The notes under the pieces are model-generated. The model ran no database searches. It saw nothing but the letters and a program-made list of their open reading frames with translations, and was not told the origin of the DNA. A program made the translations under genes and the position numbers. A DNA stretch of 64,000 nt. Origin: Natrialba asiatica DSM 12278. Lineage in GTDB: Archaea; Halobacteriota; Halobacteria; Halobacteriales; Natrialbaceae. Shown here piece after piece: positions 3,535-41,154 of the stretch (the stretch's first letter is position 1; each line of letters opens with the position of its first letter). Where the stretch lies: contig NZ_AOIO01000049.1 of NCBI RefSeq assembly GCF_000337555.1, positions 21,880 to 85,879 on the forward strand, given 5' to 3'.

Positions 3535-3580
3535 TTCCTGAGGGTACACGAACCGCGCGCGCCACGCCCTAACGTGGCGC
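3535..3580 (-). promoter_or_regulatory. leader element: conserved 15-mer plus 8-bp hairpin with TTAGGG loop
   Basis: On the minus strand a perfect 8-bp hairpin (arms 3559-3566 and 3573-3580) exposes the loop TTAGGG. Nine bases on is GTGTACCCTCAGGAA (3549 to 3535). The same 15-mer recurs at 13724-13710, again downstream of 8-bp hairpins with a TAGGG loop. The first gene starts 15 bases further on. This reads as a structured 5' leader or protein-binding site. Confidence 0.6.
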
Positions 3581-5634: not shown

Positions 5635-6876
5635 TCAAGAATAGTCACTCAGAGTTCGGTCCTTATCAACGAGATCTACAATCGACTCATGAATACCGAC
5701 CTCTGTAACCGTTTCATCAAGTGCATTGACAATCATATTGACGTCCATATCGATCGAATACTCTCGATAGGTCCCTCCACGGCGGCCTTCATTTCGCTCG
5801 ACTGCTGAAATAATCCCGAGCATAGAGAGTTCACCGAGATGATCACGCATTCGTCGAGGAACAAGTGGATCAACCCCGATTTGCTCAGCAAAGTTAGTGT
5901 ATCTAGGGCGGATATCACGGGAGCGGATTGGCGTCTCATTCTGCATTTCGAGAGTGATTAGCGCATAGAGGACGAGATGGCCATGTTGGGTGAGTCCGGT
6001 AATCCCTTCTCTGATACGACCACGCTCGAGTTCCTCTCTGGCATCCCGCACAAGATCTTCAGTAATCGTTTCAGTGTCCCTGTCGCGAGCAAGGTCGCCA
6101 GCTTTCATTAAGAGATCTAATGATTGACGAGCATCACCCGCATCCTTAGCACCGTAAGCGGCACAAAGTTCGATAACACCGGTATCAAGAACATTATCGC
6201 GGAATGCAGCATCAGCTCGTTGTTGCAAGATCTCAATCAATTCCTGGGCATCATAGGCAGGAAACTGAAGTTCTTCCTCACAGAGTGAACTCTTGACTTT
6301 TGGAGAAAGGTCGTCTCGGAAGGAAAAGTCGTTCGAGATTCCAATGATGCCGATCTTCGCCTGTGAGAGGTTTTCGTTTGCCCGTGCTCGAGGCAACTGA
6401 TAGAGAATGCTGTCGTCCTGAATATGATCGACCTCGTCAAGAACAATGAGGAGAGTGCCACCACAGGAATCTAATTCCTCCCAGAGCATATCATAGACTG
6501 TGGGTCGAGGGTATCCCGTCGTAGAGATCTGGTTCGACTCGTCTCTGAATTTGTTAACGAGGCGCGTTGCGATTTGATAACTACTGGAGAGTCCATCACA
6601 GTTCAACAGCTTGACTGTGAGCTTGATGTCGTCATACTGAGCAGCATCGTCAATGAGATGATCGAGAAGGAACCGAGTCCCGGCGGTTTTCCCGACTCCA
6701 GTTTTCCCATAGAGAAAGATATTGTTTGGTTGTTCGCCATTGATAACGGGTTGGAGTGCGGTTTTGTATCGCTCGAGTTCTTTATCTCGACCGACAAGCT
6801 CACTCGGTTGATAATCTTCTCGAAGCGCGTCTCTATTGTGGTAAATATCTGTATCGCGTTCGAACATTCCACCCAT
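5635..6876 (-). CDS. orc1/cdc6: Orc1/Cdc6 replication initiator
   Basis: 413 residues. AAA+ ATPase with Walker A GKTGVGKTAG at about 57-66 and Walker B LLIVLDEVDHI around 142-152. A sensor/arginine-finger region follows (RARANENLSQAKIGIIGIS) and then a C-terminal winged helix from about 300 (GHLVLYALITLEMQNETPIRSRDIRPRY is one helix pair, split here for description). It binds origin repeats and loads MCM. The start could be MFERDTDIY at 6867, the more usual N-terminus. Iterons of one type flank the gene on both sides, so it is the cognate initiator of this origin. Confidence 0.9.
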   Translation of the reverse strand: MGGMFERDTDIYHNRDALREDYQPSELVGRDKELERYKTALQPVINGEQPNNIFLYGKTGVGKTAGTRFLLDHLIDDAAQYDDIKLTVKLLNCDGLSSSYQIATRLVNKFRDESNQISTTGYPRPTVYDMLWEELDSCGGTLLIVLDEVDHIQDDSILYQLPRARANENLSQAKIGIIGISNDFSFRDDLSPKVKSSLCEEELQFPAYDAQELIEILQQRADAAFRDNVLDTGVIELCAAYGAKDAGDARQSLDLLMKAGDLARDRDTETITEDLVRDAREELERGRIREGITGLTQHGHLVLYALITLEMQNETPIRSRDIRPRYTNFAEQIGVDPLVPRRMRDHLGELSMLGIISAVERNEGRRGGTYREYSIDMDVNMIVNALDETVTEVGIHESIVDLVDKDRTLSDYS

Positions 6877-13709: not shown

Positions 13710-13804
13710 TTCCTGAGGGTACACAGTTGCCGTTGCCGGCCAGTTGGCGGCTGCCCTACCAGCCGCCGAGGAATTGTCTCGAGCCTGCTGCCCTACCAGC
13801 AGGC
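13710..13804 (-). promoter_or_regulatory. leader element: two hairpins with GTAGGG loops plus conserved 15-mer
   Basis: Two perfect 8-bp hairpins (13746-13767 and 13783-13804) each expose, on the minus strand, the loop GTAGGG. Twenty-one bases downstream is GTGTACCCTCAGGAA (13724-13710), identical to 3549-3535. A 15-codon ORF could be read from that GTG (begins VYPQEHYG), but the shared 15-mer more likely marks a common leader or binding site. The long gene begins 100 bases on. Confidence 0.6.
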
Positions 13805-13825
13805 CGACCGATACCTCCGTGATGG

Positions 13826-14140
13826 TCATCGCTGCACGGACACCTCTATCACGTCCATCGATGCCAGCACTTTGTGCATCCACCCGGGCACGCGCTCGGG
13901 CTTTGCGGCGTTCTCGGCTCCGAAAACGCCGGTGAGTTCAGCAGTTGAGCCGCTTCCCTCGACGATCCAGCGCTTCCCGACGAACGCGAGTTCAATCGTG
14001 AAGCTGCCTGAAGTGCCACGGAACGTCACGTCGCAGGTCGCGTCGTCGGGCAAGTCGTCGACCGCTTGGCCGATCTCGATCTCGTCGGTCAGCTCGATGC
14101 GGCGCGCGTCGTCGGACCGATCAGTTTGCGTGATTGCCAT
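13826..14140 (-). CDS. hypothetical beta-rich protein
   Basis: 104 residues from the ATG at 14140 (MAITQTDRSDD). An ATG at 14332 would add 64 polar residues of uncertain reality. The conserved-looking core is DATCDVTFRGTSGSFTIELA, then FVGKRWIVEGSG and LTGVFGAENA, a small beta sandwich or barrel. It ends 20 bases from the hairpin element that precedes the giant gene, so both may be one transcription unit. No family recognised. Confidence 0.55.
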   Translation of the reverse strand: MAITQTDRSDDARRIELTDEIEIGQAVDDLPDDATCDVTFRGTSGSFTIELAFVGKRWIVEGSGSTAELTGVFGAENAAKPERVPGWMHKVLASMDVIEVSVQR

Positions 14141-36118: not shown

Positions 36119-36325
36119 ATGTAATAAAATGCAATATAGCGCAATAAGTCTGTGGGTGAGGTGGATAAGAAATCCTGTGGTACCGACGGACAGCGGGCGT
36201 GATTAGAACGACCCCTGAAATCCACATCCAGTACAGATGCGTTGCAGTGCGCTCTGGTTCCACTCTCCGAAGGTAGGTATGAAAATACGCGTAATACCTA
36301 TTGGGCATTACCCCTTAGTAAAGAT

Positions 36326-36607
36326 ATGCCGCGCGTTACCACCAAAGGCCAAGTCACTATCCCGAAGGAAATTCGGGACACGCTCGGAATCGAACCCGGT
36401 GACGAAATCGCGTTCGAAGAGGCTGAGGCTGGCTACAAAATCCGAAAAAAAGAACCGACTACCGCAGACGGAGAAGATCCCTTCGAAAAATACCGTGGCA
36501 GTGCCGAAAGCGATGAGACAATGCCGGATCGAATGCGTCGGCTCCGAAGCGAGTACCCCCGTGATGTCGGTAACGATGAAGACGATGAGTCGGAGGGAGA
36601 GGCGTGA
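36326..36607 (+). CDS. vapB: AbrB/MazE-type antitoxin
   Basis: 93 residues. SpoVT-AbrB swapped-hairpin domain at the N-terminus: MPRVTTKGQVTIPKEIRDTL then GIEPGDEIAFEEAEAGYKI. The rest is an acidic toxin-binding tail. ATG at 36326; upstream Met codons are outside the domain. A TATA-like ccccttagtaaag lies directly before. Its stop overlaps the GTG of the PIN toxin. Confidence 0.88.
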   Translation: MPRVTTKGQVTIPKEIRDTLGIEPGDEIAFEEAEAGYKIRKKEPTTADGEDPFEKYRGSAESDETMPDRMRRLRSEYPRDVGNDEDDESEGEA

Positions 36608-37080
36608 TCACGGCAGTCGATACAAACGTTCTTCTCGCTCTTTTGTACGAAGACGAACATGCCAACAAAAGTGAAGTAGAACTTCGGCGCGTCTACAGAG
36701 AGGGGCGGGTCGTTATTACACCACTGGTGTACGCTGAACTCACAGCAGATGGCCACTTCGATACCACATCAGAACTCGATCAGTTTCTTGAGGACTTCAG
36801 TATTCAGCTCGTTGAACCATCACGAGAGGCATTATTCCGAGCAGGTGAGCAATTCCAGCAGTATACTGTTCGGCGTCCAGATGGACTTCAATGCCCGTCT
36901 TGCGGGACGAAACAGACCGTCCGTTGTGAGGAGTGTAGTGAGGATCTTGCACCGCGTCAGCATATTGCTTCGGACTTTGTCATTGGTGGACATGCGACTG
37001 TCGACGGAGATGCATTGGTCAGCTTCGATAACGCCTTCTACGAAACATATTTCCCAGCATTGACTGTATACCCTAAGTAA
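36604..37080 (+). CDS. vapC: PIN-domain toxin VapC with zinc-finger insert
   Basis: 158 residues, GTG start in the antitoxin stop. PIN acidic residues: Asp6 (TAVDTNVLL), Glu in VYAELTADG, and Asp residues in ASDFVIGGHA and VSFDNAFY. Between the central helix and the third acidic motif there is a two-pair Cys insert (CPSCGTKQTV, then CEECSEDL) that would bind zinc. VapC toxins cleave RNA. The family usually runs about 130-140 residues, and the insert explains the extra length. Confidence 0.85.
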   Translation: MITAVDTNVLLALLYEDEHANKSEVELRRVYREGRVVITPLVYAELTADGHFDTTSELDQFLEDFSIQLVEPSREALFRAGEQFQQYTVRRPDGLQCPSCGTKQTVRCEECSEDLAPRQHIASDFVIGGHATVDGDALVSFDNAFYETYFPALTVYPK

Positions 37081-37494: not shown

Positions 37495-37855
37495 CGGGTC
37501 TGGTTCCCGATTGGATGACCATAACCGGCTGACTCTGTCGGCACGCCATACGAACCAATACGCAAGACAGTCACATAACTAGTAGGGCCACTACCGGCGA
37601 GTCAATCATATGGCTGTTGTGTGGCCGCGCTCTGTCGCTCCGACCGGTGGGACGACAGACAAGATGGAGTCGCGCGTATGGTCATTCTCGGCGTCCAATC
37701 GGCCAGCACGAACACACCGCTATCGAACTGTTAAAATCACATCTGTATTCTGGTATATCATTTCGAAATCAGCACACCGGTATGGGGTTATATGATAGTC
37801 AGAATATAGAGGGGTACCACTAACCTTTATCATGAATGCGGCCTAGGCACTAGAC
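37495..37855. other. gene-free stretch
   Basis: Several short frames exist but none has haloarchaeal composition or a promoter. No repeat was seen before the structured element at 37856. Confidence 0.4.
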
Positions 37856-37917
37856 GAACTCAGGGCTCGCCGAAGTAAGGATTCGGCCGGGCGGTAAGGA
37901 CGCCCGACCCTGGGTTC
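37856..37917 (+). ncRNA. three-way-junction RNA element with two GUAAGGA hairpins
   Basis: An outer 10-bp stem (gaactcaggg 37856-37865 with ccctgggttc 37908-37917, one G-T pair) encloses two adjacent perfect 6-bp hairpins: gccgaa/ttcggc (37869-37887) and cgggcg/cgcccg (37888-37906). Both loops are exactly GTAAGGA although the stems differ. That points to selection for the loop and for pairing rather than a simple repeat. It ends 25 bases before the ATG at 37943, so it is probably a 5' leader bound by protein or a ligand-responsive element. Confidence 0.65.
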
Positions 37918-37942
37918 ACCCGACGTAATAGAGTGAACACCA

Positions 37943-38434
37943 ATGGCTACGAACGCAGTTCTTGATAAGCGTACCGACGACCAACCGATCCGCAGACAGC
38001 GCCACATCGAACCGGTCCCTGCCGACTGGGCCCGACTCGGTCGCGACGAACACATTCTCGAAGGCTACTCTCGATTTGTCGCTGAGAAAGTCTGCTACGA
38101 ATACCGCCTCGAGCGCGATCCCCACGCCGTCGGCGGCCATGTTGAACGCCACCTGCTCTTTGTTGCCTACCGGCAGCCCGAAACCGATGAAGTAATCGAA
38201 CGGAGCTATCAGGCGTCAGTCGCCGAAACTGACGCTGGGTCGCTGTCAGTCCCGACCTCGGAACGCGACGGTGACTTAGGTCCCGATGATTGGGGCCGGA
38301 TCGACTACCAGGCGATCGAACCGACTGATAGTATCGCCGTGATTCCGAAATGTGTCCGAAGCGGCGAACCACGAAACTTCCGGGCGAGCGTGGCTGTTCA
38401 GTCCAGTGAGCCACGAATAGTGGGAGAAGAATGA
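37943..38434 (+). CDS. hypothetical beta-rich protein
   Basis: 163 residues. KVCYEYRLERDPHAVGGHVE, HLLFVAYRQPETDEVIERSY and IAVIPKCVRSGEPRNFRASV suggest a small beta-sandwich. No signal peptide, no Cys cluster. The structured element at 37856-37917 directly precedes it. No family recognised; role unknown. Confidence 0.6.
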   Translation: MATNAVLDKRTDDQPIRRQRHIEPVPADWARLGRDEHILEGYSRFVAEKVCYEYRLERDPHAVGGHVERHLLFVAYRQPETDEVIERSYQASVAETDAGSLSVPTSERDGDLGPDDWGRIDYQAIEPTDSIAVIPKCVRSGEPRNFRASVAVQSSEPRIVGEE

Positions 38435-38600: not shown

Positions 38601-38835
38601 ACTCTATCGCCTTCTCTTGAGGAGATCGTGCTGGTCTAGTTTCCCAGTCTCCGGTGACACCTGACGTCTTCAGTGAACTCTCTTGGGCCGTCGTTCGTTA
38701 TAGACCGACGACGACCGATCGAGCGACAGACAAGCGAGTAGCCAGACAAGCAAACAACCGCTTTCGTGCTGGGTTTCTGTTAGCTGTAGAGTCTGAAAGC
38801 CTTCTCAGGGTAGTGTAAGCAAGCCGGCGACAGCT

Positions 38836-39893: not shown

Positions 39894-40586
39894 CTAGCCA
39901 TTGTTCTCAGCGATGCCACCATCAGCAAGCACTGCGGGCCGATCGTCTGGGGAAGTCGGCCGAGAAGGCCGATAGGCACACTGCTGGCCGGGATAGTATC
40001 GCTGTGCAAGAACCTTCGCGGCGTTGTGATCGGCGTAGACGCCGTCGACGTGACAGTCCGGGTTGGTACACCGGAAGGTCTTGTTCAGTGGCCGTTCACC
40101 CAGAACACCGCAGACGTGGCACTCCTGGGAAGAGAACTCTTCTGGAACTGTTGTGACCTCGATACTGTACTCGGCAGCGATCGTGCGGAGCCGGCGATGG
40201 GCTATTGGCAGCAGCCACGAGGTTCCTCGATGAGCGTCAGGGTCGGTGACCCACGCCCAGAGGTCAGGCTTGAAGTGACTATCTTCGGTGACCAGAACGG
40301 GATGTTCGTATGCGCTCGCGTACTCACAGAGTTCTCGAGCGGCAGCGTCGATCGCCTCGATGAGGGCAACTCGACGGTCCTTGACGTACGCCACGATTGT
40401 GTCCCGGTCATACTCGCTGCCAAGTAGGGCGGCAGTCTGTTCGCGAAGCGCGTCTAACTGAACACAGAGGTCGTCGCCGCTGATCGTGTAGGCGCCCTTC
40501 CAATCCGGCATTTTCACCGGACAGGCGGTGTAGAGATTGTACTCGCCGAGGTCGACCCCAATCGCGGTGGGGTCGGACTTATGCAT
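39894..40586 (-). CDS. TnpB-type RuvC nuclease without N-terminal RNA-binding domain
   Basis: 230 residues from the ATG at 40586; longer frames are shadows of the next gene. RuvC residues Asp12 (AIGVDLGEYNLYTA), Glu101 (VLVTEDSHF) and Asp186 (VYADHNAAKVL) are all present. A zinc finger sits between the second and third (CHVCGVLGERPLNKTFRC, then CTNPDCHVDG). The WED/REC part of IS605 TnpB is missing and no TnpA or element ends were found. It overlaps the upstream gene by eight bases in an operon, which suggests a domesticated accessory nuclease. Confidence 0.72.
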   Translation of the reverse strand: MHKSDPTAIGVDLGEYNLYTACPVKMPDWKGAYTISGDDLCVQLDALREQTAALLGSEYDRDTIVAYVKDRRVALIEAIDAAARELCEYASAYEHPVLVTEDSHFKPDLWAWVTDPDAHRGTSWLLPIAHRRLRTIAAEYSIEVTTVPEEFSSQECHVCGVLGERPLNKTFRCTNPDCHVDGVYADHNAAKVLAQRYYPGQQCAYRPSRPTSPDDRPAVLADGGIAENNG

Positions 40587-41154
40587 CGCGACCACCTGGT
40601 GAGGGCCCCGTCTCGAGTGCGTCGGGAGCAGGCCCCTGGTCAGCGGTCGTTGCGCCATCGGAGTCGATAATCGCTGATGTGTCAATGGCCTCCTCGAGGT
40701 CGGTCTCGAGGCAGTCCTGTGCCTTTCGCAATCGAGCGGCCCAAGACGCTGCTTTGGTTGTCGAGATGCTGGGGACTTGTTCCCAGTCGAGCTGTTCGTG
40801 GCCAGTCGCGAGTTTCTCAAGGCGGTTCAGTGTTCGGTGACCGTCGATCTGGCTCTCAAGGTCGGCGATGGCATGTTCGTCATCGCGGTCTTCCATGGGC
40901 TGGCTCCCGCCCGCCTGAACCGGGTGATCGCCCATCGAGTCGTCCTGGTCACCAGTCGGGTTGCGCAACTGGACACAGACGTTCGAAATCGGTTCGCGAC
41001 CGGTTTCCCGCCACTCGCCGTCGCGGTGTTCGTGGGTGATCCGCCACGCTTCCCCGCCCGTGTCGGGGATGATCGTCACGCGACGGCGACGATTGTCGAT
41101 CGTCCGGTACTCGAAGATGAACTCGAGTGGATAGTCCGCGGTATTTTCCATCAC
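40579..41154 (-). CDS. hypothetical protein, operon partner of TnpB-like nuclease
   Basis: 191 residues. N-terminal beta domain (YPLEFIFEYRTIDNRRRRVT, then GGEAWRITHEHRDGEWRETG) and a C-terminal helical part (LESQIDGHRTLNRLEKLATG, TKAASWAARLRKAQDCLETD). Overlaps the genes on both sides. Possibly supplies the nucleic-acid contacts that the shortened TnpB-like protein lacks; this is speculation. No family recognised. Confidence 0.55.
   Translation of the reverse strand: MMENTADYPLEFIFEYRTIDNRRRRVTIIPDTGGEAWRITHEHRDGEWRETGREPISNVCVQLRNPTGDQDDSMGDHPVQAGGSQPMEDRDDEHAIADLESQIDGHRTLNRLEKLATGHEQLDWEQVPSISTTKAASWAARLRKAQDCLETDLEEAIDTSAIIDSDGATTADQGPAPDALETGPSPGGRDA

Follow-up and report, generated by a model that had tools for sequence, protein, structure and literature searches.

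A Covarying Three-Way-Junction Leader of Haloarchaeal Mobile Elements and Its Likely Control by cis-Antisense RNA

Introduction

Bacterial countertranscript systems, such as CopA/CopT of R1, RNAI/RNAII and hok/Sok, set a cis-encoded antisense RNA against a folded leader. In archaeal viruses, antisense control reportedly rested largely on one phage and on work from 1993. Haloarchaea mostly use leaderless mRNAs. In the phage concerned, phiH, binding of T(ant) is reported to expose the T1 transcript to host RNases, which strip the first ORF of its ribosome-binding site (PMC4284463).

The window analysed here is a stretch of 64,000 nt from Natrialba asiatica DSM 12278. It carries an RNA element ahead of a start codon which we consider likely to be a cis-antisense-controlled two-state mRNA leader, related in a more general form to phiH T1/T(ant). 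The family, the fold, the overlap of the stems P1 and P4, and the promoter motifs on both strands with their fixed geometry were computed directly.

The Leader and Its Relatives

Folding of positions 37846–37927 gives a three-way junction with a minimum free energy of −37.4 kcal/mol (z −2.9; 2 of 200 shuffles were equally good). The initial annotation had described a three-way junction at 37856–37917, and the fold returns exactly its 10-bp outer stem (P1) and two 6-bp inner hairpins (Table 1). Its remark that both inner stems carry the same loop 25 nt ahead of a start codon also holds for the window copy, where both loops are GUAAGGA and the element ends 25 nt 5′ of the ATG at 37943. That earlier picture was correct about the junction and overlooked a further hairpin, P4, that shares bases with P1, as well as the promoters of the two strands. 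The comparative support for the junction far outweighs that from the folding energy.

Table 1. Features of the leader locus in the window
Feature	Positions	Strand	Sequence and basis
Predicted sense promoter (BRE+TATA)	37819–37832	+	ACTAACCTTTATCA; score 12.9; predicted start at 37856, the first P1 base
P1, 5′ strand	37856–37865	+	GAACTCAGGG; predicted mRNA 5′ end; window fold and covariation in 89 distinct relatives
P2 hairpin	37869–37887	+	stem 37869–37874/37882–37887, 6 bp; loop GUAAGGA; window fold; 99.5% of cells paired in the family
P3 hairpin	37888–37906	+	stem 37888–37893/37901–37906, 6 bp; loop GUAAGGA; abuts P2; window fold; 5 of 6 pairs covary
Lone unpaired junction A	37907	+	A in 97% of 92 elements
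P1, 3′ strand	37908–37917	+	CCCTGGGTTC; P1 has 10 bp; P4 begins with the final 4 nt, GTTC
P4 hairpin	37914–37938	+	GTTCAC 37914–37919 with GTGAAC 37933–37938; 3′ end 4 nt before the ATG; excludes the outer P1
Predicted antisense transcription start	37939	−	motif start 37976 minus the 37-nt offset; one base past the P4 3′ end
Predicted antisense promoter	37963–37976	−	CGGTACGCTTATCA; score 4.8; within ORF codons 7–12
Putatively regulated gene, 163-aa protein	37943–38434	+	no Pfam match; homologues in Natrialbaceae plasmids and virus ChaoS9

Upstream of nearly all intact homologues of the 163-aa ORF the same junction is found, with unrelated stem sequences. In a seed alignment of seven such leaders, located through homologues of ORF 37943–38434, 12 of 21 pairs had changed on both sides and the covariation score was 0.65 against 0.24 in shuffles. 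The covariance model R1 built from this seed matched 99 of 392 Halobacteriales genomes, spread over 45 of 95 genera, mostly ahead of genes other than the 163-aa ORF. For 80 stretches around R1 matches the sequence was retrieved. Over 92 elements (89 distinct), canonical pairs fill 96.2% of the pair cells, and compensatory changes occur in 16 of 21 pairs; the covariation score is 0.625 against 0.199 for shuffled alignments, and slid controls gave 0.06–0.13. MAFFT had put P1 one base off in some rows, and one J12 base was cut from three rows of the seed alignment A6 for R1. The alignment A8, for which the model aligned the unaltered sequences, is biased towards the structure. P4, the promoters and the codon statistics lie outside every covariance model.

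The window copy scores 66.6 bits with R1 and 57.6 bits with R2, and has the covarying P1–P2–P3, the P4 overlapping P1 and the start codon 3′ of P4 which mark the R1/R2 leader family. A search with R2 across 393 genomes of the phylum matched 28 genomes, all Halobacteriales except one; that match (G708, L239) was not accepted, as the other hallmarks of the family are missing. Rfam gave no match in the window at gathering thresholds, and chance matches only at a relaxed threshold. The leader family is previously uncatalogued and is present in about a quarter of Halobacteriales genomes. The covariance-model search of haloarchaeal genomes that had been suggested for this element has found homologous structures, so that the objection of absent homologues fails, and the view of a structured regulatory RNA ahead of a start codon finds support in the fold and in covarying relatives.

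Viral contigs scanned with P3 patterns hold true members as well (e.g., L160, L162, L189, L200, L207, L215). Other P3-pattern matches (L198, L203, L223, L193, L173, L201, L186) were false and come from GC-rich phages without promoter, P4 or ATG. The same Natrialba genome contains a second, more divergent copy (L231, G000:C23:4679-4740), which has P4 and an ATG and lies before a different gene. In phiCh1 (L224), positions 6054–6115 between the ORF48 repressor and ORF49 give a weak model match (E 0.14), which folds into an extended version of the junction; a sense promoter prediction falls at 6047, and GCCUUC/GAAGGC could make a P4 ahead of a GTG. The known repressor region of phiCh1 may hold a divergent member of the family.

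The loops at 3567, 13754, 13791 and 61711 had initially been listed as related, which was not borne out: apart from the leader, the model matched the window just once, weakly, at 13922–13977 (E 0.007), and this match was rejected with P3 not formed and a position within a coding stretch. The loops at 13754 and 13791 belong to two adjacent hairpins with the same CTGGTAGGGCAG core (13744–13815, minus strand) directly 3′ of a stop codon, and are unrelated to the junction element.

Two Exclusive Folds

A P4-type stem of at least 5 bp is present in 86% of the distinct elements, against 37% (maximum 49%) of partner-swapped and 24% of letter-shuffled controls. On the P1 3′ strand, 4–6 nt are taken up by P4, which usually finishes 0–1 nt 5′ of the ATG; the ATG itself stands 9–24 nt 3′ of the element in nearly every copy. 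Because P4 uses part of the P1 3′ strand, the two stems are mutually exclusive over their common stretch. The energy gap between the P4 form and the P1 form has a family median of 0.6 kcal/mol (interquartile range −0.6 to 2.8), and in the window copy the P4 form costs 1.8 kcal/mol. The arrangement of a P1-overlapping P4 beside the ATG was observed in nearly all copies, also in weak matches kept out of model building. Sequestration of a Shine–Dalgarno sequence was dropped as the main logic, since SD-like motifs between the P4 loop and the AUG are modestly enriched (39% vs 14%) and missing from most copies.

Promoter Motifs on the Two Strands

In 82 non-redundant elements, an unsupervised motif search over the 62 nt 5′ of P1 brought out a BRE+TATA motif, about CGTAAnnTTTAAG, which begins 37–38 nt before P1 in most of them. 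The transcript start is therefore predicted to lie at P1 itself. In the window, the sense promoter is the single site scoring above 3 within 37780–37850, and lies exactly 37 nt before P1.

Two further kinds of sites were seen around this promoter. CTAG is rare in haloarchaea as a rule; two CTAG tetramers are located at 37843–37853, past the TATA box and ahead of the predicted start, and CTAG-N3..8-CTAG occurs at the matching position in most of the leaders that precede genes of the 163-aa family. The paired tetramers could mark a site for a regulator. Farther upstream than the sense promoter, an imperfect, operator-like inverted repeat (TATTCTGGTATATCAT ... ATGATAGTCAGAATATAG) occupies 37746–37761 and 37792–37809; other elements have different inverted repeats around their own BRE/TATA.

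A second constraint was found inside the genes. Nucleotides +25 to +37 of unrelated leader genes read GAWAAnnnTAYCG; the third base of codon 11 is T in 79% of leader genes vs 11% in codons 20–49, and that of codon 9 is A/T in 92% vs 24%. Since the signal sits at third codon positions, the constraint acts on nucleic acid, and a common N-terminal peptide was rejected as the conserved object. The sense-trained motif model was applied to both strands from −30 to +200 of genes. The best minus-strand site fell at +23/+24 in 55 of 82 leader genes, whereas among the other ORFs from these loci it did so in 6 of 677; in about a third of the leader genes the best antisense site is elsewhere than at the expected position. 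From the end of P4 to the antisense motif there are 36–38 nt in 58 of 71 cases, which mirrors the arrangement of the sense motif and P1. The window gene is one codon shorter near the antisense motif and its P4 is about 3 nt farther from the ATG; evidently, the spacing to P4 is kept and not the spacing to the ATG.

Genes Behind the Leader

About a dozen homologues of the 163-aa ORF are found in Natrialbaceae, mostly plasmid-borne, and one in Halobacterium virus ChaoS9 (gp64). The protein had no PDB match at E ≤ 0.001, and its predicted model has moderate confidence (pLDDT 68). Autoregulation by this protein was dropped, as the element precedes many unrelated proteins. Of the genes behind the leader, 7 of 55 scanned encode SWIM zinc-finger proteins; others encode small zinc-finger-like proteins, and many are unknowns. 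A small divergent ORF lies within about 170 nt of at least 24 elements, many of these ORFs being winged-helix regulators, and plasmid annotations likewise place winged-helix regulators divergent from the leader gene. Because unrelated genes and divergent winged-helix regulators adjoin the leaders, their setting is that of early or regulated operons of mobile elements (plasmids, proviruses). Examples of culturable carriers are Natribaculum and Haloterrigena turkmenica (pHTUR03).

In L138, L140, L106, L095, L096 and L097 the leader is followed by very short ORFs (19–36 aa) in which the in-coding antisense motif is kept; these could be decayed genes or leader peptides. Elsewhere in the window, the ORF at 39894–40820 on the minus strand resembles IS605-type TnpB, with a CxxC zinc motif near the C-terminus, by inspection. 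Upstream of the element, 36242–37080 holds an AbrB-like/PIN-domain pair (PIN by Pfam), likely a toxin–antitoxin module.

Strand Asymmetry and Loops

The substitutions in the stems differ between the three helices. P2 contains 51 G-U vs 2 A-C cells, and P1 75 vs 38; because G-U cells outnumber A-C cells, the P1/P2 fold is under selection in the sense RNA. For P3 the count is 0 G-U and 2 A-C among 532 cells. A P3 without G-U fits a hairpin that folds in both RNAs, and a need for stability could also explain it.

The loops of P3 contain YUNR on either strand in 59% vs 31% of shuffled cases, and P2 loops are depleted in this motif. The commonest P3 loop occurs in both orientations (GUUCCAGC 11 times, GCUGGAAC 9 times). 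The nearly identical leaders L134 and L135 have P3 loops that are reverse complements (UUCCAG vs CUGGAA), as if the loop had been inverted. Judged by these patterns, the two orientations fit a loop whose partner would be its own complement, and the loops appear to vary between elements as specificity determinants do.

Proposed Mechanism and Alternatives

In the mechanism that we favour, the element would be the complete 5′ leader (about 75–88 nt) of an mRNA starting at the first P1 base. This leader would alternate between the P1–P2–P3 junction and a form in which P4 captures the P1 3′ strand and lies directly against the start codon. The opposite-strand promoter in codons 7–13 would yield an antisense RNA which starts from the end of P4 and is complementary to the entire leader. 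Such an RNA, we infer, would be produced and would act both in the window and across the family. The folded antisense RNA would pair with the leader, probably first through a kissing contact at the P3 loop, which would be shaped on both strands. Pairing would silence the gene through a block of initiation, through RNase cleavage of the exposed leader, or through both, as reported for phiH T1/T(ant). The divergent winged-helix repressor may often control the sense promoter too.

The widespread antisense start sites of haloarchaea count against reading an antisense RNA as necessarily functional (PMC6523106). One alternative is a bistable leader that controls translation alone or with ribosomes or initiation factors, beside an incidental antisense promoter. 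In its favour, P1 and P4 are exclusive and near equal in energy, P4 stands 0–1 nt from the AUG in most copies, and SD-like motifs are in modest excess ahead of the AUG. However, this explanation, which we regard as unlikely, leaves unexplained the minus-strand BRE/TATA at third codon positions of unrelated genes, with its fixed spacing to P4, and the P3 without G-U. A three-way junction with an alternative stem beside the start codon would also suit a metabolite- or ion-sensing riboswitch with P1/P4 as the expression platform, and the conservation of the junction A (97%) and, in part, of the purine-rich P2 loop speaks for it. Nevertheless, highly conserved unpaired positions are few, the downstream genes are unrelated, mostly unknown genes of mobile elements with no common pathway, and there was no Rfam match, which makes a riboswitch quite improbable.

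The asymmetry of G-U and A-C cells in P1 and P2 is that expected of a sense RNA, and the placement of the element is fixed between promoter and start codon. Both observations speak against a DNA-level element (a cruciform, recombination site or replication origin), for which the location on plasmids and proviruses, the orc1/cdc6 genes nearby in several loci and a P3 perfect on both strands could be cited; we hold this to be very improbable. To an operator bound by a CsrA/RsmE-like or another loop-binding protein we give hardly any credence. The initial annotation had drawn attention to the paired AnGGA loops and to a partner of this kind, and the window copy does have AnGGA in both loops. It is the only one of the 92 elements to do so, and GGA is missing from at least one loop in 85 of 92; loops vary freely while stems are kept, and CsrA (Pfam PF02599) had 0 matches in the Natrialba genome, with control genomes positive. 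The evidence points to an antisense RNA as the partner in place of a protein.

Should antisense control of the leader be confirmed, the phiH arrangement would become a widespread regulatory module, carried by about one in four Halobacteriales genomes. It would place mobile-element genes of unknown function, in their hundreds, within one type of regulon, and archaeal antisense-RNA control would become testable in culturable strains. A translation start contested by two exclusive stems would be notable where leaderless mRNAs prevail. More tentatively, it is possible that haloarchaeal plasmids and proviruses have in common a large repertoire of orthogonal RNA switches for immunity or incompatibility, each made of a bistable leader and its own antisense RNA, in which the P3 loop, folded on both strands, serves as an exchangeable specificity determinant; an element already in the cell would thereby shut down a related newcomer in trans.

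Comparison with Known Systems

CsrA/RsmE-binding RNAs resemble the window copy in their paired AnGGA loops, but these are not a trait of the family, and CsrA is absent from the genome. At the ChaoS9 gp64 locus, the downstream protein is homologous (41% identity), the same junction occurs with P1 and P4, and the predicted sense promoter is one base from P1; the locus differs by a lower antisense-promoter score. In the ChaoS9 genome paper, the passages searched do not mention a structured leader.

With the bacterial countertranscripts the leader family shares hairpin loops that vary on stems that are kept, and YUNR-type loops; the YUNR enrichment of the P3 loops and their occurrence in both orientations would fit loop–loop kissing between sense and antisense hairpins. 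In contrast to the bacterial systems, the promoters here are archaeal, no sequence relation exists, and the leader is fused to many unrelated genes.

For phage phiH1, mapped start sites are on record for the early lytic transcripts T1–T3 and for the antisense RNA T(ant). To this phage we applied the motif model with the 37-nt offset, both of which had been derived independently of phiH1. The three best sites predict starts at 2583, 2733 and 2493, and the annotated starts are T1 at 2583, T(ant) at 38732 (2733 in the locus) and T(LX3) at 2492, so that the predictions agree within 0–1 nt. By inspection, GAGCAGG ... CCUGCUC ... GAGC-AUG shows strand sharing of the P1/P4 type: the sense start is at the GAGCAGG strand, and its partner CCUGCUC is also complementary to the GAGC before the AUG. 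T(ant) has its start one base ahead of the AUG and its BRE/TATA within the first codons, with the same 37-nt geometry, and a PadR-like/repressor context of a mobile element is common to both. The phiH1 leader differs in its length of 151 nt and in an inner fold that is other and larger. A search of the phiH1 stretch with R2 gave no match to the inner P2/P3 fold, and because it does not match the covariance model, phiH1 is kept outside the leader RNA family. In phiH, both start sites and the processing that depends on the antisense RNA are known by experiment, and the antisense RNAs of the window and the rest of the family are predictions from sequence. By analogy, the leader family may well work like phiH T1/T(ant), the kinship resting on promoter geometry and strand sharing, and the published mapping in phiH supports the view that such a geometry can yield both a sense and an antisense RNA.
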